From positions 1 through 64,000 of the forward strand of contig JAQWNC010000015.1 of NCBI GenBank assembly GCA_029246505.1: DNA of 64,000 bases. Reading direction: 5' to 3'. Source of the stretch: Arenicellaceae bacterium (GTDB lineage: Bacteria > Pseudomonadota > Gammaproteobacteria > Arenicellales > Arenicellaceae). The position numbers were made by a program, and so were the translations under genes. Shown in pieces: positions 4,419 through 20,485 of this stretch (its first letter is position 1; every line of letters begins with the position of its first letter). The notes beneath the pieces were generated by a model that worked only from the letters and a program-made list of their open reading frames with translations, did not search any database and was not told the origin of the DNA.

Positions 4419-5695
4419 AATGCCCAGTAACGGTAACCAAGACTGGTAAACTCATCACGATCAATTAGTCGCTTAACATCAATCGCGATACCACCTTCGA
4501 CTAATAGCTCAGCATATTCCTTAGGAGATTTAGATGCCAAAGAATCGTGCGCTACTGCCAGTACTATAGCGGAACAACCCCGAAGTTCGCTCCAATCACT
4601 TAGCTCAATACCATAATGCCCTTTGGCCTCATCAGCACTTACAACAGGATCATGGGTTTTTACATCGAACCCGTACTGCTGTAATTCATCGACAATTTTG
4701 AATGACTGGCTATTGCGCAAATCGGTACAATTTTCCTTAAAAGTCATGCCTAAAACAGCGACTTTACTATGAGTACCTAGCCCATTGCTCAGCACCATTT
4801 TTGCGGTTTTCTGAGCTAAAAACTTCCCCATTGAATCGTTGATTCTCCGACCAGCCAATATTACTTCTGGTTGATACCCCAGTGACTTAGCCTTATCTGT
4901 CAAATAATAAGGGTCTACCCCAATACAGTGCCCGCCAACGAGTCCGGGAGTAAACTTAAGAAAATTCCATTTCGTTTGAGCCGCTTTTAGAACTTCGGCA
5001 GTATCAATTCCGACCCGGTCAAAAACCATCGCCAACTCGTTCACAAAAGCAATATTAATGTCGCGTTGGGCGTTCTCAATAACTTTCGCAGCCTCGGCAA
5101 CCTTAATGCACGATGCCGCATAAATGCCCGCTTCGACAACCTTTTCATACAACGCTGAAAGCCGGGCAAGCGTTTCAGGTATATCTCCAGAAACTACTTT
5201 TACAATTTTTTGAAGGGTATGCTCGATATCACCAGGGTTAATTCGCTCCGGTGAATACCCCACATTAAAATCTTTTTTCCAAATCAGCCCTGACTCTTGC
5301 TCGAGCACCGGAACGCACACTTCCTCCGTCGCTCCTGGATAGACAGTAGACTCATATACCACGATAGTCCCTGGTTTCATGATCTGGCCTACAGCTCCTG
5401 ATGCAGCGACTAACGGGGACAAATCTGGTTTATTTGCGCCGTCAACCGGCGTTGGCACGGCCACAATTAATATATTGCAATCGGCCAAATCCTTAATGTC
5501 ATTGGTTACCGTTAGGTATTGAGCACGCTGGAATTGCTCCGTGCTGACTTCGCCCGTCACATCCAGGCTCTTACGATAATCGTCGATCTTCCTCGCACTC
5601 AGATCGTACCCAATTGTTGGCTGTTTTTCGCCAAAGGCGACGGCTAGTTGAAGCCCCACGTAACCCAGACCAATAATTCCGATTTTCTCAGACAT
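4415..5695 (-). CDS. UDP-N-acetylhexosamine 6-dehydrogenase (TviB/WbpO-like)
   Basis: This 426-residue nucleotide-sugar dehydrogenase has GLGYVG at residues 9-14 for NAD binding, the VPTPVD segment near 80, and the catalytic cysteine (C257) in [11 protein letters not shown]. It performs a four-electron oxidation of the C6 hydroxyl to a carboxylate. Overall sequence and length resemble the TviB/WbpO branch that oxidises UDP-GlcNAc or UDP-GalNAc, rather than UDP-glucose dehydrogenase. It is the first gene of a minus-strand operon with the epimerase and the ABC exporter. Branch assignment is from recognition only. Confidence 0.88.
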
Positions 5696-6171
5696 TAAAA
5701 ACTCGTGAAATCTATTCTTTAAGCGATGTTATACGCACCGCAAGTGGCGCGCGAATCTGAATTCATACACGCATAAGCGCTCACTTACCCTAGCCAATTG
5801 TAGCGACTAGCTGGCCTTCTACAACCCTAAAAGCCAATAAATTGATAATTCATTGTATAATAGTCTTAGTTAGCATGATTGGCTTTGTAGCTCCCTATTA
5901 ATCAGATTATATTCTAAGACGCATAACCAAGCACATTAGAGCTTTAGGGTTAAGGCGTCCGGGAGCAAAAGTCTTTCTATGAGTCGGACAACGCAAAAGG
6001 TGGACGCTTAAAGATTATTATATCCAGTTTTTTATCAACAGGTTTTCGTTAAGTTAGATGTACGATCTCAGCACGTTTAAGTCTTGGCTCTATAGAAGTG
6101 GGTGCTGTTACTTTATTTAGTGCGATTTAGCGTTAAAAGAAAATTTATAATTATTTAGTGTGGAGTGAGAC
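5696..6171. promoter_or_regulatory. 476-bp divergent intergenic region with candidate promoters
   Basis: The gap separates the minus-strand dehydrogenase operon from the plus-strand carrier-protein operon and must carry promoters for both. TATAAT matches occur on the plus strand at 5856-5861 and 6146-6151. The second is 20 bases before the TTG start of the acyl carrier protein gene, but I see no convincing -35 hexamer. GGAG at 6162-6165 serves as ribosome binding site for the start at 6172. I looked for an ops/JUMPstart element and found none. No further gene is visible. Confidence 0.4.
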
Positions 6172-6408
6172 TTGATAGATACAATAACAACTATAATTGA
6201 AAAATTCGCCGGTAAATCGCCAACGGCAGATGCTCATTTATTCGATGAGGGATATTTAGACTCTCTAAGTTTTTTAGGATTAGTTGAAGAGCTAGAAAGT
6301 CACTTCAATGTCAGAATGACAGCTGAATTCATGAACGAAGAAAATTTTTCAACGTTAGAAAAAATAGAGAAAACAATCGCACAAATCATAAAGAGCCAAC
6401 ATGCCTAA
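6172..6408 (+). CDS. acyl carrier protein-like (phosphopantetheine attachment)
   Basis: This 78-residue acidic protein has the acyl/peptidyl carrier fold signature DEGYLDSLSFLGLVEEL, with the phosphopantetheine attachment serine at residue 31. It begins with TTG after a GGAG ribosome site. Its end overlaps the following ligase gene by eight bases, and the partner is an amino-acid-type adenylating enzyme. It is therefore most likely a stand-alone carrier for an activated amino or carboxylic acid, like DltC or a stand-alone peptidyl carrier, rather than the fatty-acid ACP. It needs a 4'-phosphopantetheinyl transferase, which is not seen in this window. The low GC content resembles the rest of this operon. 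Confidence 0.85.
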   Translation: MIDTITTIIEKFAGKSPTADAHLFDEGYLDSLSFLGLVEELESHFNVRMTAEFMNEENFSTLEKIEKTIAQIIKSQHA

Positions 6409-7963
6409 CGATATCTGGGATTTGTTTGCTGATAGATGTACAAAATCACCAGACTCGGAGGCCGTTGTATATTCTGGAAAGCGGTGGACTTGGAAAGAGT
6501 TAGAGTGCGACGTAAACCAATTATCAAATAGATTATTTCTAGCCGGTGTTTCAAAAGGTAGCGTTGTTGGAGTGTACTTCGATCACTCCTTTGCTCAAAT
6601 CGCTTCTATTTTCGCAATTTCTAAACTGGGAGGAATCTTCACTTTAATTTCTCCGCATTTAAAATCTGAGCAGGTTAAAAGCCAAGTTTTTGACTCAGCA
6701 ATCACCCATATCGTAGGACAGGCAACATTTGTTAGTCAATACGTTGATTTTTTTGCTAATACTAATATTTCAATTCTTGAATTAGACGACTTTGGAAACT
6801 TTACAAATCCACCTGCCACCGCAACTATAGAGGTTACGCCAACCCCCACAAGCCACCATTTTATCCCAAAAGATGTAGCATGCTATATATATACCTCTGG
6901 AAGCACAGGGAAGCCTAAAGGTGTTGTTGTGCCACATAAGACGCTACTTGATGGCGCTCGCATCGTATCTTCTTATCTAAAAATCACCCGATCAGACAAC
7001 ATTTTAAGCATCCTGTCCTTTGGCTTTGACTATGGTTTAAATCAACTTTTAAGTGCTGTTTATACTGGCGCTAAAATAGTAGTCCTAAATTACAGACTAC
7101 CAATGGATTTATTGTCCTCAATCGAAAAAGAAAAAATTACCGCTTTCGCAGCTGTTCCTTCACTCTGGCCAAACTTATTTCATGAAAAACTTGTAAACAG
7201 AGCACTATTTGGTGAATTTGAGCATCTTCGTTATATAACCACCGCTGGGGGCACTCACTCAAAAAAGCTTTTAGAAAACCTAACGCGCTTTTTTCCAAAT
7301 ACAGATATTATTATTATGTACGGTTTAACCGAGTCATTTCGCTCAACATTTTTACCCCCAGAAAAAGTACTTGAAAAAATTGGGAGTATTGGAAAAGCTG
7401 TTCCCGAAGTCGAGATTATGATCGTAAATGAGAAAGGCAAACCATGTCTCAGCGGAGAAAAAGGCGAGCTGATTCACCGCGGCGCATTTGTAAATTATGG
7501 CTACTTAAACAATAAGGAACTAACGAAATTAAAATATAAACCGCTGAGCCTCGCTGGAAGCGGGTGTTTGCCTGAATATGCTGTTCGCTCAGGAGACCTT
7601 GTCAGCATGGACGATGAGGGATTCATTTTTTTTCATGGCAGAATCGATTCGCTTATTAAGGTACATGGCCATAGAGTGAGCCCTGGTGAAATCGAAGATA
7701 TAGCACTCTCTTTCAAAGATATTCGGTATGCAGTCGCTGTAGAGATAATATCCACTGATGACGATTCTTACATTGCGTTAGCTTACTCAACATATTCTGA
7801 AGGCGACATCGACAAACTAGAATTTCAAGATTATTTGAAAAGCAAACTTCCTTATTATGCCGTTCCTAAATTAATACGATTTTATCAGGACGTACATTTG
7901 AATAAAAATGGCAAAATTGATTACGCTCGTATCAAGGCTGAAATTGGTGCAAGTGAACCTTGA
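6401..7963 (+). CDS. AMP-forming acyl/amino-acid adenylating ligase (A-domain-like)
   Basis: This 520-residue member of the ANL superfamily should activate a carboxylic acid as its adenylate and load it on the adjacent carrier protein. The ATP-binding loop YTSGSTGKPKG lies at residues 164-174, YGLTE at 307-311, SGDL at 397-400, GRID followed by VHGHRV at 413-425, and the C-terminal catalytic lysine in NKNGK near 505. The FGFDYG segment retains an aspartate at 210. In amino-acid adenylation domains this position binds the substrate alpha-amino group, so an amino acid substrate is favoured (inference). It overlaps the carrier gene by eight bases and the next gene by TTGA. Substrate identity needs assay; 3-methylaspartate or glutamate are candidates from context. 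Confidence 0.85.
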   Translation: MPNDIWDLFADRCTKSPDSEAVVYSGKRWTWKELECDVNQLSNRLFLAGVSKGSVVGVYFDHSFAQIASIFAISKLGGIFTLISPHLKSEQVKSQVFDSAITHIVGQATFVSQYVDFFANTNISILELDDFGNFTNPPATATIEVTPTPTSHHFIPKDVACYIYTSGSTGKPKGVVVPHKTLLDGARIVSSYLKITRSDNILSILSFGFDYGLNQLLSAVYTGAKIVVLNYRLPMDLLSSIEKEKITAFAAVPSLWPNLFHEKLVNRALFGEFEHLRYITTAGGTHSKKLLENLTRFFPNTDIIIMYGLTESFRSTFLPPEKVLEKIGSIGKAVPEVEIMIVNEKGKPCLSGEKGELIHRGAFVNYGYLNNKELTKLKYKPLSLAGSGCLPEYAVRSGDLVSMDDEGFIFFHGRIDSLIKVHGHRVSPGEIEDIALSFKDIRYAVAVEIISTDDDSYIALAYSTYSEGDIDKLEFQDYLKSKLPYYAVPKLIRFYQDVHLNKNGKIDYARIKAEIGASEP

Positions 7964-8703
7964 AAGAGACCTCGAAAGAAAACTTGATGTCAATATGGAA
8001 AAATATTGGCCTGTCAACAGGTGACTCCATTGTTTGCCACAGCGCTTTATTTAAACTTGGAAAAATCGAAGGCGGAGTGCAGTCAATTTTGAGCACCATA
8101 ATAGATACCATTGGAGAGACTGGCAATTTCATCACGCCAACCTTTACCTATAGTTTCATGCGAAATGAGATTTATGACGTCGACAATTCACCATCAACTG
8201 TGGGAATATTAGGCGACATAGTCCGCAACAGTAACGAATCGGTGCGAAGCCTAGACGGAAATTTTTCTTGGAGCGCCCTTGGTAAAGACCGCGAAAATTT
8301 AATGCGCATAGATACAAAGGAGTCGTTTGGGAAAAACTCTTTTTTTGATAAATTACGCGGTAAGAATGGGAAATGTTTGTTGTTAGGTGTTGATTTTGAT
8401 GCCCTTCCATTTTTTATGTTTTTGGAAAAGGAACAAGAAGTGCCATACCGCTATAATAAGAAGTTTAATGGCAAAATCAAGGTGGGAGATTTAACAAGAA
8501 AAGATTACTTTGTTCATTATGTAAGAGATGAAAATTTGAACCCAATATCGGCAAGACTAAAAATCGGGGATATAATCAAATCTGACTCTCGATGTAAAAT
8601 TAGCAAAATTGGGTACGGCGAGGCAATCTGCGCCCCATTAAGTCTCATACAAGAATTTGTAGAGAAGCATATTCAACAGGATGCATTTATTCTCATCGAT
8701 TAA
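7960..8703 (+). CDS. AAC(3)-family N-acyltransferase of the polysaccharide type
   Basis: This 247-residue protein matches the aminoglycoside 3-N-acetyltransferase fold family: GDSIVCHSALFKLGKIEGG at residues 21-39, then PTFTYSF at 60-66 and LLGVDFDA at 141-148. Relatives in glycan clusters acylate amino sugars rather than antibiotics. Members usually carry a histidine in a T-F-x-H-x-x-E type motif at the position that here reads FFMFLE, with methionine at 153. The usual catalytic histidine may therefore be missing or displaced. Start is TTG in a TTGA overlap with the ligase stop. From context it probably moves the carrier-bound acyl group to an amino sugar; resistance is unlikely. Confidence 0.75.
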   Translation: MKETSKENLMSIWKNIGLSTGDSIVCHSALFKLGKIEGGVQSILSTIIDTIGETGNFITPTFTYSFMRNEIYDVDNSPSTVGILGDIVRNSNESVRSLDGNFSWSALGKDRENLMRIDTKESFGKNSFFDKLRGKNGKCLLLGVDFDALPFFMFLEKEQEVPYRYNKKFNGKIKVGDLTRKDYFVHYVRDENLNPISARLKIGDIIKSDSRCKISKIGYGEAICAPLSLIQEFVEKHIQQDAFILID

Positions 8704-8762
8704 ATTACGCCCCCATAGATTACCAAACTAGTACATCAACATTAAATATATAGGAGTGCACT

Positions 8763-9443
8763 TTGGCACAAGAACAAAAAAGAGATTGGGATCAAGTGAA
8801 GTATCATGGACGATACAACCGTTATCCTTTTACAGAAGTAGTCTCATATATGATGGGCACGTTTAGCATAGAATCGAGAGAAGCAACAAAGGTTCTCGAT
8901 CTTGGTTGCGGCGGCGCACATCACCTTCTGTTTTTGGCGGAAGAGAAATTTGATTACTTCGGCGTTGACGGATCTCAAGAAGCATTGGACATTGCCAAAA
9001 AGCGCTTAACCCAGAAAGGCTACGACACCAGTGGCCGTCTAGCGAAATCTTATTTTGAAGACCTACCATATAAAGAAAACACTTTTGACGTTGTTATTGA
9101 TCGGGGATCTCTCGTATGTAACAAGCTTGAAGATATCCCGCCCCTAATAGACGAAATTGGTAGGATCCTAAAACGAGGTGGTCGATTTTTTAGCATGATT
9201 TTAAACGAAGAATCGACCGCTAAAAACACGGCAAAGCATATTGGTAACAACGACTACATTGATCACGAGGGCCGCCTAGAAGAAGCGGGCGTATTGCACT
9301 ATACCAACACGGACGAAATGAAAGCTCTTTTTTCTGCATTTAGCATAGACTCAATCGAGCATATAACAAAAAAAATGGTTTACCCAAATATTGAAAAGCC
9401 TTCAATTGATTCTTGGAGCATCATGAAGTGTCGTAAGCCTTGA
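8763..9443 (+). CDS. class I SAM-dependent methyltransferase
   Basis: This 226-residue protein has a textbook motif I (VLDLGCGG at 44-51), an acidic FGVDGS loop after strand 2, EDLPYKENTFDVVIDRGS near the strand-4 region, and a LKRGGRFFSMIL segment. These are features of methyltransferase family 11/25 enzymes. The start is TTG with TAGGAG at 8751-8756. The stop overlaps the TTG of the mutase gene. In this operon it could N- or O-methylate the amino acid or the finished acyl-sugar. An N-methylated glutamyl substituent is known on a clostridial flagellar legionaminic acid, but the target here is only inferred. Confidence 0.8.
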   Translation: MAQEQKRDWDQVKYHGRYNRYPFTEVVSYMMGTFSIESREATKVLDLGCGGAHHLLFLAEEKFDYFGVDGSQEALDIAKKRLTQKGYDTSGRLAKSYFEDLPYKENTFDVVIDRGSLVCNKLEDIPPLIDEIGRILKRGGRFFSMILNEESTAKNTAKHIGNNDYIDHEGRLEEAGVLHYTNTDEMKALFSAFSIDSIEHITKKMVYPNIEKPSIDSWSIMKCRKP

Positions 9444-11422
9444 AGCCTATTGTTTTGCTCGGCGGAATTGGGGGAGACTCCCATTCTGTCGGGTTATCTA
9501 TTTTAAAGAATGCGCTACTTGAAAATAATATCGAGGTTTTATATCTCGGTATTCAGAACGACATTGAAGAATTTTTTAAGTTTCATGAAATAGTTAATGC
9601 CGTTTTAATTTCTAATATGGATGGGCATGCAGATATATATTTAAAACCCTTCTTTGATTTAGCCCTTAAATATAAAAAAGACCCTGACGTTAAATGGTAC
9701 TTAGGCGGAAATATATCGGTCGATAAATCTATCCTTAATGAAAAAAAGTACCTAGACATGGGCTTTACGCGAGTATTCTCTACTTTTGTTGATATCAAGC
9801 AGGTACTAATAATATTAAAAAGCAGCCTCAGTGATTGTAAACGACTGCCGAACTCGAAAGAATTTTTTAAACGAAATGGACCTGCGTATTTGAAAATTAG
9901 CAGCGATTTTAGTGTTTCTGACTTTGCTTGCAATAACGAACAATTCGCAATAGAACGAAAGGAGGTATTAAATCATTGGCGAACAGGGAGAGCTGCAGAA
10001 AGCCTTGAGCAAAACGCGTTTTTCTTAAGGGCCTGCGCAAGTTTTCCAAAAATAATGCATGAGGCCGAACAGGCGAACGAACTATTAATCCAGCCTCGTT
10101 CTGGTGTTGCTTATAAAAACCAGCAAATTAGTTATTTTAAATCCTTTAAAAAATTTGGAGCATCAGTGCTCTCCTATCAAGTAGATTCTTTAACTAGAAA
10201 TAACAGTTATTTTAAAATCGATGAAGTACTAAAAGAAAATATCGGGGGTTATGAAGATGTTTTAAATGGCTTTCCTGTTGTTAATCAAGGTGTTGAGCAC
10301 TTGAGAGAAATTATAAGAGAGGTCAACGCGCCTCTGCAAACCAGACATAGCACAAGAGACCCAAGACTCTTAGCTGAAATATCATACTCCGGCGGTGTAA
10401 CTGCTTATGAAGGTGGCCCGATATGTTACAACCTACCTTATTACAAGCATTTCTCTTTAGTAGACTCTATTAAATCATGGCAATATGTAGATTACTTAAC
10501 AGGCCTTTATTACAGCAAATATGGCATCATCCTCGACAGAGAATATTTTGGAACATTAACCGCGACCCTAATTCCGCCCTGTATCGCAATAAGCACTAAT
10601 ATACTTGAAGCACTTTTGTCAGCCTCTTTTGGCGTTAAATGCGTCACCCTTGGGTACGCTGAGCAAGGAAACAGACACCAAGATATTGCAGCGATACGAA
10701 TGTCTAAAAAGATAGCTACTAAATATTTAAAATCGTTTGGATACAAAAATGTAGAAGTACATACAGCTTTTTATCAATATATGGCGGCATTCCCTCAAAT
10801 TATTGAGCAGGCAGAGGAGTTGATTTATCAATCTGCAATAACTGCAAAACTGTCTGGTGCGACTAAAATATTAACAAAAACAGTTGTGGAAGCTTTTAAA
10901 GTACCAAGCATGGCAGATAATATCGAGAGCTTGTCTATTGTAAAAAGGGGCGTAAAAAATTCAGACTTCTCTTTGATCGATGAAACGAAGGTTTCCTTTG
11001 AAGAGACACTAATAGAACGAGAGGTAGAATCTATAATCGACAGTGTTATAGAGCTTGGAGGAGGCAATATCAGCAAAGGAATTGTAAAAGGATTTGCAAA
11101 TGGCTTGATAGATATCCCATTCGCCCCGAGTGTTTTTAATGCAGGGAATGTGGTCTGTATTAGAGATATAGAGGGTGCTGTGCGAATAGCAAACTTCGGA
11201 AATTTAGAAATACCCAAAGAAGTTAAAGACACCCACGAATCCTTTGTAAAAGAAAGACTGCGCAAAGAAGGTAATAAAACCAAGTTATTTAGTATTGTTG
11301 AAAAAGACGTATTAGCAGTTGCTAGGTCACAATATAGCTGTTGGCCATTATCAGATAAAAAGAATTTATCGTTTGGCGCGTCACTTGAACTTAATCATCA
11401 AATTAACGAGGCAGAATACTAA
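9440..11422 (+). CDS. glutamate (methylaspartate) mutase, S and E subunits fused
   Basis: This 660-residue protein joins the two chains of adenosylcobalamin-dependent glutamate mutase, which interconverts L-glutamate and (2S,3S)-3-methylaspartate. Residues 1 to about 135 are the small B12-binding subunit: D13-x-H15-x-x-G18 places H15 as the lower cobalt ligand, followed by the SNMDGHAD and YLGGNIS loops. From about residue 170 the large catalytic subunit follows. It has GFPVVNQGVEHLR, the Arg-containing QTRHSTRDPRLLAEI, GGVTAYEGGPICYNLPY, WQYVDYLTGLY, REYFGTLT.TLIPP and VTLGYAEQGNRHQDIAA. In the classical clostridial enzyme these are separate proteins. The start is TTG overlapping the upstream stop. 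Fermentative use is unlikely; the operon points to glycan or secondary metabolism. Confidence 0.85.
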   Translation: MKPIVLLGGIGGDSHSVGLSILKNALLENNIEVLYLGIQNDIEEFFKFHEIVNAVLISNMDGHADIYLKPFFDLALKYKKDPDVKWYLGGNISVDKSILNEKKYLDMGFTRVFSTFVDIKQVLIILKSSLSDCKRLPNSKEFFKRNGPAYLKISSDFSVSDFACNNEQFAIERKEVLNHWRTGRAAESLEQNAFFLRACASFPKIMHEAEQANELLIQPRSGVAYKNQQISYFKSFKKFGASVLSYQVDSLTRNNSYFKIDEVLKENIGGYEDVLNGFPVVNQGVEHLREIIREVNAPLQTRHSTRDPRLLAEISYSGGVTAYEGGPICYNLPYYKHFSLVDSIKSWQYVDYLTGLYYSKYGIILDREYFGTLTATLIPPCIAISTNILEALLSASFGVKCVTLGYAEQGNRHQDIAAIRMSKKIATKYLKSFGYKNVEVHTAFYQYMAAFPQIIEQAEELIYQSAITAKLSGATKILTKTVVEAFKVPSMADNIESLSIVKRGVKNSDFSLIDETKVSFEETLIEREVESIIDSVIELGGGNISKGIVKGFANGLIDIPFAPSVFNAGNVVCIRDIEGAVRIANFGNLEIPKEVKDTHESFVKERLRKEGNKTKLFSIVEKDVLAVARSQYSCWPLSDKKNLSFGASLELNHQINEAEY

Positions 11423-11476
11423 CTTATTGCTAGAAATTAGCCCCATCGCGCCGCCAGATATATCAACAATATAAAA

Positions 11477-13084: not shown

Positions 13085-13201
13085 AATAAATATACCCGCT
13101 GTAAGTCAATCTCGGCAGTCTCAATGCCTGAAAATACTATATTTTCCAGGCATCCAATTTAGTCGCACACCCTCGGAAACCCGTAACTAACGATCCAGTC
13201 G

Positions 13202-14536
13202 TTACATACCGCCCAGACAAATTATGCCGGCTTCAAGAAGAATAGAAATAGATTTCTCTATTGTATCAGCAGGTATCTTCGATAAATCAACAATATCCCG
13301 GACACTATGTTTACCATCACTTAAATTTATTACCCAATTTAAGGCACGAATCTCGCGACTATGCACTTCACCTCCAGTATTTGGGTATAAGCCGCTTTTT
13401 CCTAATCTTGGTTCGCAATATGGATTGTTACTCCGGTAAAACCGATCTGACTCAATCTCATCAATAATTTCCTTATAAACTTCAAAAACGTCTAGCAATG
13501 CGGGAAAACTTAGCAAATCCTTGTTGTCTGCAGAGGAATGATACTCTGGATACTCGCCAGGTACTCCTCTCATAATTGAACCCACCGGTAGATCAAAGCC
13601 GGGGGAACAATACTGTCTTTCATCACTCCCATAAGGATAAAAGTCTCTTATTTCAATTCCGACGTTTTGTGCACAATGGTTACTACTTAACACCCTCTCC
13701 ACCAACCTATCTGTATAAGAGTTTATCTTGCGACTGCGCTTATATGTAAAGTGCGTATCTAAGCCAGTACAAGTCAAAATAAATCCCGCTAACATATTGG
13801 ACTTGAGGTGCTCACCATACCTGTCCAAATATACGATCGACCCAATAGTTTCCGGGGCCAACAAAAAACGATACGTGTAATGCCGATTTTGCAGTCCACT
13901 CACATACTTATATATCAATGATTGCAGTAACGGCCCTGAAAGTTCGTTGTTTGCCAGGCTCGGATGACAAATATAAGATGAGAAAAAGACTTCTCTGTCT
14001 GATATACCATCAAGTACGATATCTCCGTATGTGAGCGAGCCATCTTCCAAAGAAGAATCTATAAAAACTCGATAATCACCTTCGCGCGGTAACTGATCAT
14101 ATTCGTTTTTGGTAAGGCAAAACCCCCAGTTTCGCTTGTAGTAGCTTGTACGATAAGGAATAGCATTTGGCATGTTATTATCAATGTACAAATGCGAAGT
14201 GAGCTCGCTCCAAGGTAATGTCTGATCCATCGGCTCAGAATAGCCCATCAGATGAAGATTGTTGTCGGTAAACCGCGCTATTCGCCGCCCGTCAGGGGTT
14301 TCTAACCAAGCATCCCTTACGTTCCATTCAAGCGGTACCGTCCAATCAAAAACCTCCTCGCCACTAGCCATCTCGTGAATATCATACGGAATATGCTCAT
14401 GAAGAATTTCAAAGGACTGCCTAACACCGTTCCCAGTCAAGCTTCTGGATAAACCCCATAGCCTGTCAAATAGGTGTTCTATTGCGCCGATGCCCATCGG
14501 CTGATCGATATGATGAGGATTAGTCACTCTAGTCAT
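13202..14536 (-). CDS. DUF4910/M28-like aminopeptidase-fold protein of polysaccharide clusters
   Basis: This 444-residue protein matches the DUF4910/DUF2172 type: an aminopeptidase-like (M28 fold) core plus a C-terminal winged-helix domain. The DUF2172-like start includes LFDRLWGLSRSLTGNGVRQSFEIL. Probable metal ligands lie in SYICHPSLANNELSGP, YPYGSDERQYCSPG and PEYHSSADN. The winged helix is near 385-440 (SVRDIVDLSKIPADTIEKSI). Family members sit repeatedly beside glycan biosynthesis genes but have no settled reaction. A deacylase or amidase acting on an amino-sugar intermediate is possible (inference). The ATG overlaps the stop of the decayed cytidylyltransferase by ATGA. Confidence 0.7.
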   Translation of the reverse strand: MTRVTNPHHIDQPMGIGAIEHLFDRLWGLSRSLTGNGVRQSFEILHEHIPYDIHEMASGEEVFDWTVPLEWNVRDAWLETPDGRRIARFTDNNLHLMGYSEPMDQTLPWSELTSHLYIDNNMPNAIPYRTSYYKRNWGFCLTKNEYDQLPREGDYRVFIDSSLEDGSLTYGDIVLDGISDREVFFSSYICHPSLANNELSGPLLQSLIYKYVSGLQNRHYTYRFLLAPETIGSIVYLDRYGEHLKSNMLAGFILTCTGLDTHFTYKRSRKINSYTDRLVERVLSSNHCAQNVGIEIRDFYPYGSDERQYCSPGFDLPVGSIMRGVPGEYPEYHSSADNKDLLSFPALLDVFEVYKEIIDEIESDRFYRSNNPYCEPRLGKSGLYPNTGGEVHSREIRALNWVINLSDGKHSVRDIVDLSKIPADTIEKSISILLEAGIICLGGM

Positions 14537-15021: not shown

Positions 15022-15063
15022 TTGTACTGCTTGATTTATTCTAGACTCACAAAATCATCTTCT

Positions 15064-15744
15064 TCATTTTGCGACTCTGTGTCGTTCAGATTGAAGTTCT
15101 ATTAAGGTAGACAAGCACCGAACTGGTTTCAACTCAATATTCTCCACTTCCAATTCTTTCATTAGTATCAAGTCATCCAACGTATCAAGTGTAATGCGAT
15201 CCGTATGATCAACCTGCATAAAATCAGAATCTAACTCAACTTTTTTCAGTTGCGGATCGTTACGAATATCCCAAGTTACATGTTCCTTAGCTTCAGAAGA
15301 AGTTGGTGACCCAGCATACGCTCTAAGAACTTCCGCGCGAATAACTTCTCCTGCAAAATGCGATAAAGGTACAACAAAACCATAGTCGGCGTTGTTTCCA
15401 GCCACTGCATCATACAGTCCCTCGATAAGGGCTGGCTGCGCAAGATAGTTATCGCAGGTAAGACGCAATATATACTCCCCCACATACCCTTGGGCACAAT
15501 CTATGTATCTCTGCAGCACATCATCCTCGCCGCCCTCAAAGTATTCAGCACCGGCAGCTTCAACAAGCCCTTTAAGAATACGATTCTCGGCTCGTCGCCC
15601 CGTAGCAACAATGACCCGCTCCACTGGTGCCACGCTGTGTGCAATTGCACACACTCTTTGCACTATAGTTTGCCCAAAGAAAGTAAATAATACTTTGCCC
15701 GGTAATCTTGTGGATCCGAGCCGAGCCTGTAGTATCGCAATCAC
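15064..15744 (-). CDS. SpsF-like cytidylyltransferase
   Basis: This 226-residue nucleotidyltransferase opens with IAILQARLGSTRLPGKVL, the substrate/CTP-binding signature of the SpsF/CMP-nonulosonate synthetase-like family. EDDVLQRYIDCA, RLTCDNYLAQP, EAKEHVTWDI and the ending DRITLDTLDDL follow. Enzymes of this kind activate 2-keto acid sugars or related sugars with CTP. With the NeuB-type synthase and PseG-like protein just upstream in the same operon, it is the probable CMP-activating step for the nonulosonic acid. The start is GTG. The 96-bp gap to the upstream gene shows no other gene that I can identify. Confidence 0.78.
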   Translation of the reverse strand: MIAILQARLGSTRLPGKVLFTFFGQTIVQRVCAIAHSVAPVERVIVATGRRAENRILKGLVEAAGAEYFEGGEDDVLQRYIDCAQGYVGEYILRLTCDNYLAQPALIEGLYDAVAGNNADYGFVVPLSHFAGEVIRAEVLRAYAGSPTSSEAKEHVTWDIRNDPQLKKVELDSDFMQVDHTDRITLDTLDDLILMKELEVENIELKPVRCLSTLIELQSERHRVAK

Positions 15745-15840
15745 ATTTCTAACTTTTAGGTTGAATCCAGCGTTCGTTTTTAATGTTGGCCGATTCTATA
15801 CGAGAAAGACCACTCTTATAAGCAATGACGACTAGAAAAT

Positions 15841-16890
15841 CTAATCGCAGGCAGCTTTCTTCTGTATTTGTGTAAGAATTACATCCACCACACGATTTCG
15901 ACCCAGCCCATCCACTAATGCACTCATATTTTGGCTATAACTTCGCAATGAAGCTGGCTGTTCCCGCAGTTTAAAAAACTCCCGCACTAAACGATCTCCC
16001 GAGTATGATTCGGTAATTCCAATGTATATGCCCGCCCTAGCCTCAGCAAGCGCCTGCCCCAAAGGTCGTTGGTTTTCAGCTAAGGCAATTGCTATCGTCG
16101 GTAAACCCGAATAAGCAAACTCCCAAAGCGTCGTTCCTGCAGCAGAAATTGCTAAATCCGATCGTGAAATCAAAGGTGCCATATCTTTCACATCTTTATA
16201 TACACGCCAATTTGGGTTTCTGTTTAACGCAGGTTGAATCGTGTCGAGAAATCGATTTAATGGCCCAATTACGATATGTACACAGCCACTAAAACCAGCA
16301 CCCTCAAGACTTTCTAGAACCTTTAAGGTAGTGTTGTTTGGATCTGACCCACCAAACGTAAGCAATAACTCTTTTAACTGCTGGCGCTCTCGACGCAAAC
16401 CTTTTGCTTGGAAAAACTCGGATCGTAGCACTACGTATTCCAAACCAAGTAATAGCTCCGCATTCGGGGCTACGCGCCCGTAGCCGAGACTAACGGCGTG
16501 TGGATTCTGGTTCAAAAGTACGTCCACATTCAGCTGATCGGAAATCACATAATCACACCACAACATAAGCGACCATCGGTTATCATGAACCCGCTCTAGC
16601 CAATCAGCGGCAAAGCAGTAACCATCCACAATTAGCATTTTAGCGTTTAAGCGCATGCATAGCTTACGTGTAGCTTGCAAATCTTCATCAGTTCCGGCCT
16701 CTAAATTAAGAGTTTCACTGTTAATCTGATTCTCAAGCAATCTCCGTTCAATTGCCGGTGAGCTTTCGCTCAGCGCAAATAATACACGAATGCCCTTTTC
16801 ACGTAGAGCCTGGGCTAAACCCAAACACCGCATAATGTGCCCCATCCCGATAGCAGCTGAACAATCAACACGAAATACAACGAGCGGCAT
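15841..16890 (-). CDS. pseG: PseG-like UDP-sugar hydrolase/glycosyltransferase-fold protein
   Basis: PseG removes UDP from the activated 2,4-diamino-type sugar to give the free sugar used by the NeuB-type synthase. The start at 16,890 (ATG, then PLVVFRVDCS) was chosen because the family begins with FRxDxSxxIGxGHxxRC, seen here as FRVDCSAAIGMGHIMRC. A frame running up to 16,980 would overlap the previous gene by 79 bases. About 349 residues. The C-terminal half shows LLLTFGGSDPNN, the ISAAGTTLWEFAYSGLPTI nucleotide-binding region and ALAENQ. B. subtilis SpsG is a similar relative. The exact substrate stereochemistry is not readable. Confidence 0.78.
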   Translation of the reverse strand: MPLVVFRVDCSAAIGMGHIMRCLGLAQALREKGIRVLFALSESSPAIERRLLENQINSETLNLEAGTDEDLQATRKLCMRLNAKMLIVDGYCFAADWLERVHDNRWSLMLWCDYVISDQLNVDVLLNQNPHAVSLGYGRVAPNAELLLGLEYVVLRSEFFQAKGLRRERQQLKELLLTFGGSDPNNTTLKVLESLEGAGFSGCVHIVIGPLNRFLDTIQPALNRNPNWRVYKDVKDMAPLISRSDLAISAAGTTLWEFAYSGLPTIAIALAENQRPLGQALAEARAGIYIGITESYSGDRLVREFFKLREQPASLRSYSQNMSALVDGLGRNRVVDVILTQIQKKAACD

Positions 16891-16901
16891 AAACGAGTTG
16901 T

Positions 16902-17375
16902 TCAAAGTGGCAAGTATCCCACGAACCCGGTAATCAACCAGCGCCCATTCGAGTTTCGAAACTGAAATAAGCTTCGCCAAGCCATCGCCTCAACTTCACC
17001 TGTGGCTAATATTAAGTCGCCATCAAATACTTTTGTAAGGAGAGCGATATCTCCCTGAATGTTTGCGCTTTCCAATTTTAAGGATTTATAGAGCGCACTG
17101 TGAGCATCGTACCTTGGTGCAAAAGTTAACTTGGCAAATTCTCGTGCTTGCTTAGAGAAGCTCTTTTGATAAGACTCTAATGTCGTAAACTGAGGCGTCC
17201 AGTCGGCGGGGTTATTGCTATTATGAGCATGAATACCCAAAAATCTTGATTCATCAAAGTCGGGGGCAGTTATCGACCAGTCCTGAGAAATGAATGCCTC
17301 TATATCGCGATACACGCAGATATCCCAAAAGACTCTCATCACTTTGTCCTCGCTATAAGGGTTCTTAAACAACAT
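16902..17375 (-). CDS. small NTF2/SnoaL-like protein of unknown function
   Basis: This 157-residue protein has no catalytic motif that I recognise. The ending NGRWLITGFVGYLPL and the overall length are reminiscent of NTF2-like (SnoaL) cone-shaped folds, which often act as small isomerases, dehydratases or binding proteins; this is only a fold guess. Its ATG overlaps the stop of the NeuB-type synthase gene by one base, and the PseG-like start lies 11 bp downstream. It is therefore embedded in the nonulosonic acid operon and probably serves that pathway. Confidence 0.6.
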   Translation of the reverse strand: MLFKNPYSEDKVMRVFWDICVYRDIEAFISQDWSITAPDFDESRFLGIHAHNSNNPADWTPQFTTLESYQKSFSKQAREFAKLTFAPRYDAHSALYKSLKLESANIQGDIALLTKVFDGDLILATGEVEAMAWRSLFQFRNSNGRWLITGFVGYLPL

Positions 17376-18562
17376 TATTCAACTGTTTGCAAATCACTTA
17401 TTAAAATATGCGACCCCTCCACTACATCTTTGGTTAATCTTTTGCCAATAACTTCGCCAACCCGGTCTGGTGAGACGGCCTCTTTAGGGCACGGCCTTAA
17501 CGGAAAGATATGATCTTTTCCTATAATTGTACCCGCAACAAGCGGCCTCATATAACGCAACGCGCGCCGTTGAACAATGACCGTATTAGCCTCATTCGCT
17601 TCAACTCTCTTGACTCCGTCACCAATTGCCAATTCCAGAGCCCGAGGGTCATCTACCCGTTTTCGTACGATTTTCAATCGATCTTCATAACTTGTGGCTT
17701 TGCTTGCAAAAAGCTCCTCTTTTAACTCTCTGGTTTGTGTCACCATTTCTTGCCATGAATCAGGAGTCATGGAAAATGAATGATCCTGGCCTTCACGCGT
17801 ATTATCAAACGTAAAATGTTTTTCCACTGCGCAGCAATCAAATAAACCTACTGCACCAAGCACTGTCATACAGCCATGGGTATGATCGGACAGCCCTAGA
17901 GGCACATCAACCCATCGGTTTCGATAAGTCTGAAGTACCTTTAAATTAATATGTCGGTAGCGGTTAAGTTGATCTTCCCGTGATTCCGTTTTATTAGCCG
18001 TATACTCAGTATTGCACTGCATAAGTAATACATCACTTGTATGGCGGAGTGCGACCTCCATTGCCGCTTCAACCTCAACCATGTCAGATGCGCCAGTTGC
18101 GATCAAAACCGGTACGTCATAACTGCACATAGCCTCTATTTCTTCCAGCCAGTTGATATCACCCGACCCCAGTTTGAAGGCGCTCACATAAGGTGCTACA
18201 GCTTCTATCAAATCAATAGAGTACGGAGAGGTAAAATATTCCACCTCCAATTTCGCGCAAAGCTCTTTTAACTCAACAGTCCAACTGAGCGGTATAGCCG
18301 CTGCAGCATAAGAATCAAACACAGGTTGCTTCCAGCCCGACTGATGAGTATTGACCTCCGCTAGATTCTTGAACCCGTAATCGGAGACTATGGTGCTAGC
18401 AGAAAAGTTCTGCATCTTGACCGCGTCCACCCCAGACTCCGCGCAGGCATGCACTAGCTCTTTCGCGATACTCAATTCACCACAATGGTTTGCTGCGATA
18501 TCCGCAATAAAAAATACGGGTTTGTTTGAGCCAACTTCTCGACTACCAATTTTAATGTTCAT
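17375..18562 (-). CDS. neuB: NeuB-family nonulosonic acid synthase with SAF domain
   Basis: The enzyme condenses phosphoenolpyruvate with a six-carbon amino sugar to a nine-carbon 2-keto acid. Visible features are FFIADIAANHCGELSIAKELV near the N-terminus, GVDAVKMQNF, YFTSPYSID, FKLGSGDINWLE, VLIATGASDM, GLSDHTHGCMTVLGAVGL and the AVEKHFTFDN metal/PEP region, then a C-terminal antifreeze-like SAF domain (LVAGTIIGKDHIF to the end). The start at 18,562 is an ATG overlapping the preceding stop as ATGA; a GTG nine bases upstream is possible. About 395 residues, somewhat longer than typical NeuB. Whether it makes pseudaminic, legionaminic or another acid cannot be told from sequence alone. Confidence 0.88.
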   Translation of the reverse strand: MNIKIGSREVGSNKPVFFIADIAANHCGELSIAKELVHACAESGVDAVKMQNFSASTIVSDYGFKNLAEVNTHQSGWKQPVFDSYAAAAIPLSWTVELKELCAKLEVEYFTSPYSIDLIEAVAPYVSAFKLGSGDINWLEEIEAMCSYDVPVLIATGASDMVEVEAAMEVALRHTSDVLLMQCNTEYTANKTESREDQLNRYRHINLKVLQTYRNRWVDVPLGLSDHTHGCMTVLGAVGLFDCCAVEKHFTFDNTREGQDHSFSMTPDSWQEMVTQTRELKEELFASKATSYEDRLKIVRKRVDDPRALELAIGDGVKRVEANEANTVIVQRRALRYMRPLVAGTIIGKDHIFPLRPCPKEAVSPDRVGEVIGKRLTKDVVEGSHILISDLQTVE

Positions 18563-19446
18563 AAACCCCACTCGGTCTTGGTGGCCCCCTGTAGCTCAAA
18601 CCGGTACTTCTGGAGTTGCGGGTACAGCGCTATTTCTCTAAGTGTATCGGCTTCCGTCAACAAGCCGCGAGGGTGCTTCCCTAGATCACTGATCAAAGCA
18701 AGGTTAACCTTCCGGTTCCCATTCGCCTTGACCTGATCTTCCTTATAGCCATAGCATGCTGCGAGTCGTCGGAGGAAGTCTATCTCCTCGCTTGAATCCA
18801 CAGCCCCAATATGCGCTACGCCCCTAGCACTCTTTTCAATTAAACTCGCAATTGCTTCTGCCAACATCGAGTCGCTTAATCTATTCTGTATTACTCCTTT
18901 ATGAACACCAACCGTTTCCCCTAGGGCTAGATTATCCAAAAATGCTTCTGTCCTGGTATGCCTCCAAGGAGACCACCCATGGATCGAAGAGAATCGTAAT
19001 ATTAACCAGCGCACGTTAGCCTTCGATTCCAATAGGTTCTCACATCGTGTTTTAAAACGTCCGTAAGGCGTTATTGATTTTGCTGGCAAACTCTCCACCA
19101 GTGATTCAATCTTATACCCATCAAGCGCCAAAGCAGAGGAAGTGTAAACATAGTGAGCATCGTGTTTCTGACAATACTCAAGGCACAACCCATGATTAGT
19201 GTAGTCACTCTCTTGAATACCCGCGCTTAAATTAATAACACAGGCAGGATCAAATTCTTCCAGAGCATCACGTAAGTGGGTGGATTTTGTAATACATGTC
19301 AATTTCAATGGCATGTCATCCGGCAAACAAGAACTATCAGACGGAACTGAGGAACTCCCCAGAACCTGCCAATCTTTGACGTTGAATCGTTTCGCCAGGT
19401 GATACGCAATCCACGACCGTCCTCCTAGAACAAAGGCACGTCTCAT
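18559..19446 (-). CDS. RmlD-like NAD(P)-dependent sugar reductase/epimerase (SDR)
   Basis: About 295 residues, starting at ATG 19,446 (RRAFVLGGRSWIAYHLAKRF), four bases after the upstream stop. A TTG further upstream would overlap the previous gene. The N-terminal nucleotide-binding turn is GGRSWIA, followed by ACVINLSAG and YVYTSSALALDG, with a Tyr-x-x-x-Lys (YGRFK) at the catalytic position and LILRFSSIHGWSP. This is the layout of dTDP-4-dehydrorhamnose reductase-like proteins such as SpsK. Between the PseB-like dehydratase and the NeuB-type synthase it may reduce the 4-keto intermediate. That would leave a hydroxyl where pseudaminic acid has an amine (inference). Confidence 0.72.
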   Translation of the reverse strand: MRRAFVLGGRSWIAYHLAKRFNVKDWQVLGSSSVPSDSSCLPDDMPLKLTCITKSTHLRDALEEFDPACVINLSAGIQESDYTNHGLCLEYCQKHDAHYVYTSSALALDGYKIESLVESLPAKSITPYGRFKTRCENLLESKANVRWLILRFSSIHGWSPWRHTRTEAFLDNLALGETVGVHKGVIQNRLSDSMLAEAIASLIEKSARGVAHIGAVDSSEEIDFLRRLAACYGYKEDQVKANGNRKVNLALISDLGKHPRGLLTEADTLREIALYPQLQKYRFELQGATKTEWGL

Positions 19447-19450
19447 CAAT

Positions 19451-20485
19451 CTAGAACGTAAAATCCGCTGCAACGTGTTTGCGAATCAACGCTCGGATAT
19501 CATCTACATCCAACCGCTCTTCATTAGTACCTGAATTGTATACAAACCCCGTTTTAACTTTTTTTGCAGCGTAGTGAGCCTGATAATCGGAAAGTAAAAA
19601 CCTGCCAATTTGCGGGAGAATCACAAAATAATCTCCAGCATCTACCGTCGTATAAGAATCGGAAGAGGTAACCATTTCTTCGTGTATCTTTTCGCCCGGT
19701 CGCACCCCAACAATTTCGGTTTCGCAATTCGGGGCAATGGCTTCCGCCATATCGAGAATCCGGTAGGACGGTATTTTTGGCACGAATATTTCACCACCCA
19801 TCGCACGATCGATAGCACGCAGCACCATATTAACGCCCTGTTCTAAGGTGATATTAAATCTTGTCATATCAGGATCAGTCACCGGTATAGTACCGGTCTT
19901 CCGCTTATTCAAAAAAAACGGAATAACCGAACCCCTGGAACCCATTACATTTCCATAGCGCACTACCGACAAGCTCAGATCGCGGCCTCCTTTAATATTG
20001 TTAGCCGCGACAAACAATTTATCGGAACAGAGCTTTGTTGCACCATATAGATTAATAGGTGCAGCGGCCTTATCCGTGGAAAGCGCGACAACGCGATTTA
20101 CACCGCAATCAAGTGCGGCATCCAGTACATTTTGAGCGCCGTACACATTGGTAAGAATGCATTCCATAGGGTTATCCTCCGCCGCAGGCACTTGCTTTAA
20201 CGCCGCTGCATGAACAATGGTATCTATACCCTCACACGCTCTTTTAAGCCGTGCTCCATCGCGCACATCACCTATAAAATAACGAATTTGCTCATACTTT
20301 GAGCGAGGAAACTGTTGGGCCATTTCATACTGTTTCAACTCGTCTCTAGAAAAAACTACCAAACGGGTAACTTGAGGATAATTGTGCAATACAGTATCAA
20401 CAAATGCCTTTCCAAATGAGCCAGTACCTCCAGTAACCAGAATGGATGTCGACTTAAGTTCTCTAATGTTATCTTTTATTTGCAA
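19451..20485 (-). CDS. pseB: UDP-N-acetylglucosamine 4,6-dehydratase (inverting), PseB type
   Basis: This 344-residue SDR carries the hallmarks of PseB: LVTGGTGSFGKAF for NADP, FSRDELKQYEM, IVHAAALKQVPAAEDNPMEC, LSTDKAAAPINLYGATK (with the Asp-Lys and Tyr-x-x-x-Lys catalytic residues), VRYGNVMGSRGSVIPFF and RPGEKIHEEM. PseB dehydrates UDP-GlcNAc at C6 and inverts C5, giving a UDP-4-keto-6-deoxy-L-arabino sugar, the first step of pseudaminic acid synthesis. It starts with TTG after TGAGG and leads a minus-strand operon running to the cytidylyltransferase and beyond. Confidence 0.9.
   Translation of the reverse strand: MQIKDNIRELKSTSILVTGGTGSFGKAFVDTVLHNYPQVTRLVVFSRDELKQYEMAQQFPRSKYEQIRYFIGDVRDGARLKRACEGIDTIVHAAALKQVPAAEDNPMECILTNVYGAQNVLDAALDCGVNRVVALSTDKAAAPINLYGATKLCSDKLFVAANNIKGGRDLSLSVVRYGNVMGSRGSVIPFFLNKRKTGTIPVTDPDMTRFNITLEQGVNMVLRAIDRAMGGEIFVPKIPSYRILDMAEAIAPNCETEIVGVRPGEKIHEEMVTSSDSYTTVDAGDYFVILPQIGRFLLSDYQAHYAAKKVKTGFVYNSGTNEERLDVDDIRALIRKHVAADFTF

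Follow-up and report, generated by a model that had tools for sequence, protein, structure and literature searches.

The window analysed here comprises positions 1 to 64,000 of the forward strand (64,000 nucleotides) of contig JAQWNC010000015.1 from an Arenicellaceae bacterium (Gammaproteobacteria; Arenicellales; assembly GCA_029246505.1). Between positions 6172 and 11422 it carries five intact genes on the plus strand, encoding in turn a carrier protein, an adenylating ligase, an AAC(3)-like acyltransferase, a methyltransferase and a glutamate mutase in which the S and E subunits are fused (Table 1). Profile matches for all five genes bear out the coordinates and families given in an original prediction made from this DNA, as well as its remark that most junctions overlap: three of the four do so (by 8, 4 and 4 nt), with a gap of 59 nt between the AAC(3)-like and methyltransferase genes. 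Four of the five begin with TTG, taking the starts as set by the ORF finder. The operon had also been described as AT-rich against its surroundings, and its GC content (0.383, against 0.441 in the remaining window) was indeed lower than that of every one of 483 windows of the same size, none of which overlaps the operon, although these were placed one per 100 bases and hence overlap one another.

The same prediction placed the operon next to nonulosonic acid genes. These are nearby, starting 3.6 kb past the operon, but they lie on the opposite strand (15064-20485) in a separate operon. A two-sequence PseC profile matched nothing in the window or in the 20 kb that follow it. Without PseC, the nonulosonic acid of this cassette may carry a single nitrogen, normally acetylated, which counts against the pathway proposed below. 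A DUF4910 protein, a NeuB homologue, an N-acyltransferase and a carrier protein are all present at the locus, the combination that marks DUF4910-linked neighbourhoods for carrier-protein sugar acylation.

Table 1. Genes of the five-gene operon and of the neighbouring nonulosonic acid region, with profile scores
Feature	Coordinates	Strand	Evidence
Acyl/aminoacyl carrier protein	6172..6408	+	PF00550 34.1 bits; 78 aa; TTG start
Stand-alone adenylating ligase, proposed 3-methylaspartate:carrier-protein ligase	6401..7963	+	PF00501 238.4 bits; VinN-type pocket
AAC(3)-like N-acyltransferase, a proposed methylaspartyl transferase from carrier to sugar amine	7960..8703	+	PF02522 97.2 bits
Class I SAM-dependent methyltransferase, proposed target the amino group of the acyl unit	8763..9443	+	Methyltransf_31 72.2 bits
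Fused glutamate mutase	9440..11422	+	PF06368 457.9 bits; TIGR01503 442.9 bits
DUF4910/DUF2172 metallopeptidase-like protein	13202..14536	-	PF16254 288.2 bits
Cytidylyltransferase, divergent	15064..15744	-	PF02348 61.2 bits; below NCBIfam cut-offs
PseG-type UDP-sugar hydrolase	15841..16980	-	TIGR03590 232.3 bits (cut-off 153.55)
NeuB-type nonulosonic acid synthase, divergent	17375..18571	-	PF03102 179 bits; below NeuB/PseI equivalog cut-offs
RmlD-like reductase, in the expected place of PseC	18559..19473	-	PF04321 39.2 bits
PseB-type UDP-GlcNAc 4,6-dehydratase	19451..20485	-	TIGR03589 497.7 bits (cut-off 407.75)

Glutamate mutase is familiar as an enzyme of fermentation, and a few natural products also depend on it. 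The fused protein of the window consists of a B12-binding S domain (approximately residues 2-135) and a catalytic E domain (approximately residues 165-631). The E domain exceeds the TIGR01503 equivalog cut-off of 390.1 bits, and the S domain falls below the curated equivalogs NF002612 (73.9 against 110 bits) and TIGR01501 (61.9 against 135.8 bits). In the PDB, the protein matches the E subunit of 6h9e/1cb7 at an E-value of about 1e-98. All eight of the residues that we take to form the active site (Arg66, Arg100, Arg149, Glu171, Tyr177, Tyr181, Lys326 and Glu330 of GlmE, counted on 1cb7) are present, as R220, R253, R302, E324, Y330, Y334, K480 and E484. These eight are invariant across five fused mutases, as are D13, H15, G18, S58, G89 and G90 of the S domain, whose B12 motif DxHxxG reads DSHSVG (residues 13-18). 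The source genome also encodes an adenosyltransferase and an ACP-synthase family protein.

For the ligase, the closest ligase model by score was TIGR03098 (472 bits, below the cut-off of 592.35). The related ligases of two further loci, L113 and L114, scored 505 and 453 bits, compared with 767 and 769 for the family members L053 and L058, and in a tree of 22 ligases those of the window, L113 and L114 formed one clade with a support of 1.00. When a 140-residue pocket segment was searched against 177,635 PDB sequences, VinN (3wv4/3wvn) was the only match at E<=1e-5. VinN is the adenylating enzyme for 3-methylaspartate, with the roles of its pocket residues set out in the part of PMC11253843 considered here. 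The match is weak (36 bits) and is shared with exosortase-type ligases, the one tested giving a better value (2.9e-13) despite having no mutase in its own stretch; a DltA-like ligase also matched VinN about equally to the window ligase (5.4e-8), far behind its match to DltA. With either the whole ligase or its C-terminal 360 residues as query, linear gramicidin synthetase came first, and VinN ninth and seventh, respectively. Of the features that mark a VinN-type pocket, the window ligase has Asp230, a bulky aromatic residue at 231 (Tyr in place of F231) and a shortened beta13-beta14 loop with Arg331, which aligns to VinN without a gap, but it lacks Ser299 and Lys330. Taken together, the predicted making of 3-methylaspartate by the mutase and its predicted activation by the ligase are well supported.

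The operon is conserved beyond its own class. At L114 (genome G437; 72% GC, another class) all five genes occur in the identical order, with identities to the window of 32% for the carrier protein (over 50 residues), 46% for the ligase, 33% for the AAC(3)-like protein, 48% for the methyltransferase and 47% for the mutase, and with 4-nt overlaps at both the carrier protein/ligase and ligase/AAC(3) junctions. A DUF4910 gene (42% identical) lies directly upstream and PseB (55%) nearby, with NeuB, PseG and PseC approximately 24 kb off. A mutase not conserved with the other four genes had been named beforehand as evidence against the reading; in L114 it is kept with all four. At L113 (genome G436) the ligase and mutase are adjacent (45 and 49% identical to those of the window) and accompanied by a divergent carrier protein, glycosyltransferases and a PIG-L/methyltransferase protein, with no AAC(3) at the mutase locus and no nonulosonic acid match within approximately 20 kb of it, both of which count against the glycan reading proposed below. 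Two more loci (L079 and L080) have a ligase, carrier protein, AAC(3)-like protein, methyltransferase and DUF4910 near NeuB but no mutase, and Maritalea (L077) has a fused HAD-IIIC loader.

The carrier protein has the expected phosphopantetheine serine within GYLDSLSFL and lies under every NCBIfam equivalog cut-off listed, DltC and AmcB being nearest. Enzymes of the AAC(3) family use phosphopantetheine thioesters as substrates. The AAC(3)-like protein clears the PF02522 gathering threshold of 25 bits, but reaches none of the NCBIfam AAC(3) equivalogs (best 69.6 against 270 bits). The usual catalytic histidine, which we take to be H154 of AAC(3)-IV-type enzymes, is Met in both the window and L114 copies, a change that counts against a transfer role; the two proteins share a motif, ALPxFM..E. 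With the equivalog cut-offs unreached and this histidine replaced, the protein does not qualify as an aminoglycoside 3-N-acetyltransferase proper. Gene context suggests that the AAC(3)-like enzyme may transfer a methylaspartyl group onto an amino sugar, while N-methylation by the methyltransferase is a guess. The original make-activate-transfer reading therefore stands for making and activating, through the active site, the pocket and the synteny with L114, whereas transfer depends on context, with the usual histidine missing.

We propose, at a probability of roughly 0.58, that the operon makes a (2S,3S)-3-methylaspartyl group and places it on an amino sugar of a cell-surface glycan. In this model, the AdoCbl-dependent mutase would convert L-glutamate to 3-methylaspartate, which the ligase would adenylate in the manner of VinN, reading it as a beta-amino acid through its distal carboxyl, and load onto the small carrier protein. 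The methyltransferase would methylate the acyl unit, probably at its amino group, or the product, and the AAC(3)-like enzyme would pass the methylaspartyl group on from the carrier to a sugar with a free amine, a step that DUF4910 would also serve. The likeliest acceptor would be the nonulosonic acid, or a precursor of it, from the neighbouring PseB-PseG-NeuB cassette, and the resulting decoration would bear free amino and carboxyl groups. The families, the active-site residues of the mutase, the VinN-like pocket and the conserved operon belong to the sequences themselves; from these we infer each chemical step, the step order and the acceptor.

It is unlikely, though worth weighing, that the product is instead a small secreted or cell-associated 3-methylaspartate compound whose genes lie at a glycan locus incidentally. 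The other four fused mutases found have such natural-product-like settings, which counts against the glycan reading: with an NRPS and an Asp/Glu racemase on a Roseibium plasmid, with a PKS and an adenylation/carrier gene in Streptosporangiaceae, with ATP-grasp and TauD genes in Embleya and paired with PanD in Marinobacter. An AAC(3)-HAD loader fusion in Erwinia likewise sits in a cluster without nonulosonic acid genes. However, no condensation or thioesterase domain was found in the family-searched window genes or in ten neighbours of L113 and L114, all three sets are surrounded by glycosyltransferase or sugar-nucleotide genes, and AAC(3)-like enzymes recur with a carrier protein and a loader beside NeuB and DUF4910 in nonulosonic acid clusters.

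There is a similarly small chance that the module works as proposed with a different acyl group, either through preference for another acid or through alteration of the unit on the carrier, for example by a VinO-like decarboxylation. The ligase differs from VinN at two pocket positions, Ser299 and Lys330 being replaced by Ala and Phe, and shares its pocket letters with exosortase-type ligases, of which that of L058 adjoins a PLP decarboxylase (TIGR03099); the pairing with PanD in Marinobacter points the same way. Against this, no decarboxylase was found in the family-searched window genes or the four L114 neighbours searched, and three genomes combine the mutase with the ligase, the ligases belonging to a single clade.

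Less likely still is transfer by DUF4910 or another enzyme, with the AAC(3)-like protein as a helper or in some other role. The His to Met change in both mutase-linked copies, the L113 mutase locus, where AAC(3) was not found, and a proposal of DUF4910 transacylation to an amino sugar in part of Das et al. 2014 (PMC4000134) would all fit such an arrangement. DUF4910 does often accompany carrier-protein acylation modules, occurring in five of the six genomes of the class sample with an AAC(3)-like match (23/369 overall), but 18 of those 23 genomes have no such match, the three plasmid DUF4910 loci examined all lie in other sugar clusters, and the AAC(3)-like gene sits mid-operon in both classes with its motif conserved. 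Finally, an ordinary methylaspartate pathway of glutamate breakdown, at a glycan locus by chance, is largely refuted: the E domain does score above the cut-off of the equivalog built for the catabolic enzyme, but methylaspartate ammonia-lyase (PF07476, E<=0.001) and MutL had no match in the genome (97.5% complete), making a catabolic role for the mutase unlikely, and the five-gene operon is conserved across classes.

The proposed glycan pathway has a close precedent in the vicenistatin starter unit, made, in the part of PMC11284099 considered here, by the VinH/VinI mutase, the VinN ligase, the VinL carrier protein and the VinO decarboxylase. Both would pass through a glutamate mutase, a VinN-type ligase and a stand-alone carrier protein to 3-methylaspartyl-ACP; unlike that pathway, the window operon has fused mutase subunits, an AAC(3)-like transferase, a methyltransferase and a glycan setting, and no decarboxylase, second adenylating enzyme or polyketide synthase was seen at it. 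Its ligase also resembles the exosortase-A-associated ligase/decarboxylase pair (TIGR03098/TIGR03099) in model and pocket, but belongs to a separate clade and is accompanied by a mutase rather than a visible decarboxylase. The claim that such a carrier-protein route had not been described was too strong, as sections of PMC4000134 and PMC7874193 report related sets. A 2014 table in the former already lists aminosugar N-acetyltransferases in the company of DUF4910, a carrier protein and a NeuB homologue, and its neighbourhoods (such as Clostridium acetobutylicum CA_C2186-2199) also contain a nucleotidyltransferase and a methyltransferase domain; their loaders differ, being an N-acetyltransferase-HAD fusion or an ATP-grasp ligase, and section 10 and its table name neither a glutamate mutase nor an adenylating amino-acid ligase. 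Pseudaminic acid flagellar islands of Aeromonas group II (PMC7874193) and Enterobacteriaceae (PMC4875605) similarly hold a carrier protein, a reductase and an AMP-dependent synthetase/CoA ligase, although the relevant parts of these papers interpret them as fatty-acid synthesis and mention neither a mutase nor an AAC(3)-like gene. A structural likeness is alphaLeg5GluNMe7Ac on Clostridium botulinum flagellin (part of PMC5207245), a nonulosonic acid bearing an acidic amino acid with an N-methyl group, which is written as glutam-4-yl and is glutamyl, not methylaspartyl. We found no report of a glutamate mutase feeding carrier-protein sugar acylation in literature judged mostly from titles. Transfer of this kind is thus known in part, and the novelty lies in an amino acid made by a B12 enzyme.

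A fuller version of the proposal, which we put forward tentatively and at somewhat less than even odds, is that nonulosonic acids or another amino sugar are decorated with 3-methylaspartyl, attached by the distal carboxyl and probably N-methylated. An AAC(3)-type transferase lacking the histidine would deliver this group from its own carrier protein, and the operon would be one of the cassettes that make up a broader plug-in system. The transfer module of that system would comprise the carrier protein, the AAC(3)-like enzyme and often DUF4910, and its interchangeable acyl builders would include the mutase, a DltA-like ligase, an FkbH-like loader and perhaps an aldolase.

If the proposal is true, a cell-surface sugar is built in part from a product of glutamate mutase, linking B12 supply to the outer coat of the cell. 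The comparison of loci also points to a reusable transfer module in nonulosonic acid clusters, whose acyl groups could be predicted from the adjoining genes, and the similarity in pockets suggests which class of substrates to try first with the exosortase-A ligase/decarboxylase pair.

Sequence comparison leads us to put at about 75% the probability that the five co-directional genes of the operon would make and activate 3-methylaspartate. As the original prediction had it, the unit is mostly overlapping and AT-rich, with overlaps at three of its four junctions and a GC content of 0.383 against 0.441, and none of the 483 same-size windows not overlapping it is as low. It forms a plus-strand block between minus-strand sugar genes, flanked on one side by an ABC transporter together with genes of the UDP-sugar dehydrogenase and epimerase types, and on the other by a capsule-type gene, a metallopeptidase-like DUF4910 gene and a nonulosonic-acid cassette. 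Its edges, checked for repeats, showed no insertion marks.

Coordinates of the features discussed, by sequence or locus
Feature	Sequence	Coordinates	Content
Five-gene operon	window, + strand	6172-11422	carrier protein, adenylating ligase, AAC(3)-like acyltransferase, SAM methyltransferase, fused glutamate mutase
Nonulosonic-acid cassette	window	15064-20485	cytidylyltransferase, PseG, NeuB, RmlD-like reductase, PseB
CofD/YvcK-like protein	window	36555-38549	664 aa (PF01933, 78 bits), within the glycan locus
Decarboxylase-mutase pair	L017, Marinobacter halodurans	8260-10748	PanD-type aspartate decarboxylase adjoining fused glutamate mutase
mutS-mutE-mutL, then ligase	L050, genome of the class	5209-9756	
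mutS-mutE-mutL, then ligase	L051, second genome of the class	11241-15839	
Exosortase-A-associated ligase	L053	8606-10189	TIGR03098, VinN-like pocket
Ligase-decarboxylase pair	L058	7212-10027	TIGR03098 ligase adjoining PLP decarboxylase TIGR03099
Second carrier-protein module of G436	L120	2-3661	adenylating ligase, AAC(3)-like; carrier protein on other strand past glycosyltransferase-like ORF (by eye)
Pseudaminic-type cluster	L080	7211-11813	DltA-like ligase, AAC(3)-like enzyme, carrier protein, methyltransferase, DUF4910
NeuB/PseG cluster	L079	2799-13346	AAC(3)-like, carrier protein, AMP ligase; aldolase-, VOC-, cyclase-like genes (by eye)

The E domain of the fused mutase passes the methylaspartate mutase equivalog model; for the S domain, the dedicated models give scores under cut-off only. 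When compared with solved glutamate mutase (6h9e, 1cb7), the E domain keeps R66, R100, R149, E171, Y177, Y181, K326 and E330; these glutamate mutase active-site residues are invariant, together with DxHxxG, across the five fused S-E mutases. The organism's own genome (2.64 Mb, 97.5% complete) encodes a single E subunit, that of the operon, as well as a cobalamin adenosyltransferase and a phosphopantetheinyl transferase family gene. A catabolic methylaspartate reading was rejected, since neither methylaspartate ammonia-lyase nor MutL has a match in this genome. The absence of the mutase from all 20 further genomes of the genus or family that were examined, its rarity in the class sample (matches at E<=1e-30 in 3/368 other genomes, all stand-alone E subunits) and the base composition suggest that the operon was horizontally acquired. 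No relative was found in the viral contigs scanned, and a scan of genome contigs with two narrow peptide patterns recovered three relatives, absence there meaning little. Of the four other fused mutases, the Roseibium one stands with NRPS and racemase genes, the Marinobacter one with PanD, the Streptosporangiaceae one with PKS and adenylation genes, and the Embleya one with ATP-grasp/TauD genes. A Methylobacter plasmid MutE (L015) lies in an unrelated setting. In Marinobacter halodurans, PanD and the fused mutase could form a short route to 3-aminoisobutyrate.

Because the mutase adjoins the ligase, 3-methylaspartate is the natural candidate for the ligase substrate. VinN, the vicenistatin-pathway ligase, activates (2S,3S)-3-methylaspartate and loads it onto the carrier protein VinL, according to passages of PMC11284099, where vinI mutants are stated to yield the desmethyl product. 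By passages of PMC11253843, VinN takes the substrate as a beta-amino acid, and the features named there are D230, F231, S299, K330, R331 and a loop shortened by one residue. The operon ligase retains the Asp (D230), Arg331 and the loop length, has Tyr in place of F231, and is changed at positions 299 (Ala) and 330 (Phe). Against PDB, the whole ligase placed linear gramicidin synthetase A first and VinN ninth (5.4e-44), and residues 161-520 placed VinN seventh; the 140-residue pocket segment, searched against 177,635 PDB sequences at E<=1e-5, matched VinN only (4.8e-8, 36 bits). The pocket comparison points to a beta-amino-acid type, without proving it. Among the controls, an exosortase-type ligase also had VinN as its best match, more strongly than the operon ligase (2.9e-13), and the L080 ligase from a pseudaminic cluster (170-residue segment) matched DltA at 2.4e-44, with VinN far behind at 5.4e-8, a VinN value about that of the operon ligase; the L050 pocket segment had no PDB match at E<=1e-5. 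The low bit score of the VinN match, equalled or exceeded by the exosortase-type and L080 controls, lowers the odds for both the activation step and the whole reading.

By score the nearest model to the ligase is TIGR03098, the exosortase-A-associated ligase, yet at 472 of 592 bits it falls below cut-off, and in the ligase tree the operon ligase lies outside the confirmed members L053 and L058. The exosortase-A ligase and decarboxylase are themselves a possible pair resembling VinN and the decarboxylase VinO, with a carrier-bound acidic amino acid as substrate. Ligase matches were seen in 51 genomes besides the organism's own, with wider stretches examined for 19 of them. Two mutase-ligase pairs, L050 (G323) and L051 (G249), were rejected as support and are not counted as glycan operons, having separate S, E and MutL genes, with an FMN oxidoreductase gene at L050 and trimethylamine-methyltransferase-like and GcvT genes at L051. 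Their ligases have pocket letters in common with the operon ligase and join its clade at a support of only 0.375, and both loci apparently use glutamate mutase catabolically, together with a CoA or carrier ligase.

The gene set as a whole is kept elsewhere. A profile from the five fused mutases, run against 398 genomes of the phylum, matched the own genome and four others, two of the four being fused; this search, not the peptide-pattern scan, recovered L113 (genome G436) and L114 (genome G437). The G437 genome is a single contig of 72% GC and belongs to another class. On one strand, L114 carries DUF4910 and then, in the order of the window operon, carrier protein, ligase, AAC(3), methyltransferase and mutase, with identities to the window of 42, 32, 46, 33, 48 and 47% and 4-nt overlaps at carrier protein/ligase and ligase/AAC(3), so that the mutase does travel with the other four genes. 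PseB (55%) and a cytidylyltransferase lie less than 10 kb from its mutase, and NeuB, PseG and PseC matches about 24 kb away. In L113 the mutase and ligase are adjacent (49 and 45%), with a divergent carrier protein, a PIG-L/methyltransferase protein and glycosyltransferases; there is no AAC(3) at the mutase locus and no nonulosonic match within about 20 kb. The sole Antibiotic_NAT gene of G436 is at a different locus, where it immediately follows a second adenylating ligase and has another carrier protein nearby. In a tree of 22 ligases, those of the window, L113 and L114 fall into a single clade (support 1.00), and the three mutases group with that of Marinobacter (0.97), the order inside this group being weak (window with L113, 0.84; L114 with Marinobacter, 0.40). 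The independent test of neighbor genes was tblastn with the window proteins; the home-made HMMs were built partly from loci L053 and L076-L082, where their matches arise by construction, and naming was by eye for several neighbors at L079-L082 and L114, namely the PseC, cytidylyltransferase and aldolase-, VOC- and cyclase-like ones.

We lean towards the AAC(3)-like protein transferring the group to a surface amino sugar. The original prediction had called this carrier-protein route undescribed, which is too strong for the transfer theme: Das et al. (2014) had already placed aminosugar N-acetyltransferases and a carrier protein alongside DUF4910 and a NeuB homologue, and proposed that an amino sugar is transacylated (PMC4000134), and excerpts of PMC7874193 and PMC4875605 report AMP-forming ligases alongside carrier proteins in flagellar glycosylation islands, so the theme is already known in outline. 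For the mutase component, open-licence literature, at listing level, showed no paper linking glutamate mutase with a glycan substituent; by a term search, a Clostridium pseudaminic-acid paper (PMC13317340) mentions neither carrier proteins nor adenylation.

The identity of the acceptor is evenly balanced, with the nonulosonic acid standing at even odds. A search of the window and the next 20 kb detected no PseC aminotransferase, which, with the RmlD-like reductase, suggests a 9-deoxy sugar with a 7-hydroxyl, comparable to fusaminic acid, and implies one nitrogen. The acceptor amine might then have to be freed by de-N-acetylation, or be that of another sugar. DUF4910 was considered as the de-N-acetylase freeing that amine; Das et al. 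found in it no known peptidase active site (PMC4000134). Each of three DUF4910 plasmid loci examined has a separate PIG-L deacetylase, and among the 18 further loci with DUF4910 in the class sample, 16 gave no NeuB match (L100 and L102 did), within stretches some of which end at contig ends; on this comparison DUF4910 is non-specific to the transfer module. N-methylation by the operon methyltransferase is a tentative proposal, a little short of an even chance, for which the N-methyl-glutamyl group on clostridial legionaminic acid (PMC5207245, in part) is an analogy only.

Transfer by the AAC(3)-like enzyme also draws on its distribution. AAC(3)-like matches (E<=1e-10) occurred in 6/369 genomes of the class sample and DUF4910 in 23/369, with both in five of the six (Fisher p 3.5e-6, or 4.7e-5 without the own genome, values that serve as a guide only, the class and phylum samples overlapping and genomes being phylogenetically non-independent). 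The two lie within 5 kb in all four non-own genomes having both; three of these (L079, L080, L081) add a carrier protein and AMP ligase, and NeuB is present in L079, L080 and L082. The fifth non-own genome (L083) has no DUF4910, carrier protein, AMP ligase or NeuB. An AAC(3)-like match occurs in 68 plasmid records, of which three from the top of the list were examined: Maritalea has PseB, an AAC(3)-HAD-IIIC fusion, DUF4910 and NeuB; Solidesulfovibrio an adenylating enzyme, carrier protein, hypothetical gene and AAC(3); and Erwinia an AAC(3)-HAD-IIIC fusion whose cluster has no nonulosonic genes.

At the position of the usual AAC(3) histidine, three residues before the conserved Glu, both the window and L114 have Met (ALPxFM..E); inspection by eye shows the histidine in six of nine compared sequences but not in the window, L080 and L078. 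That two distant operons share the change looks more like adaptation than decay, and means that the chemistry cannot be copied from aminoglycoside acetyltransferases. Across these loci the transfer part recurs while the acyl builders vary: the L080 gene set predicts a sugar carrying an alanyl-type group, and that of L079 would be another acyl builder.
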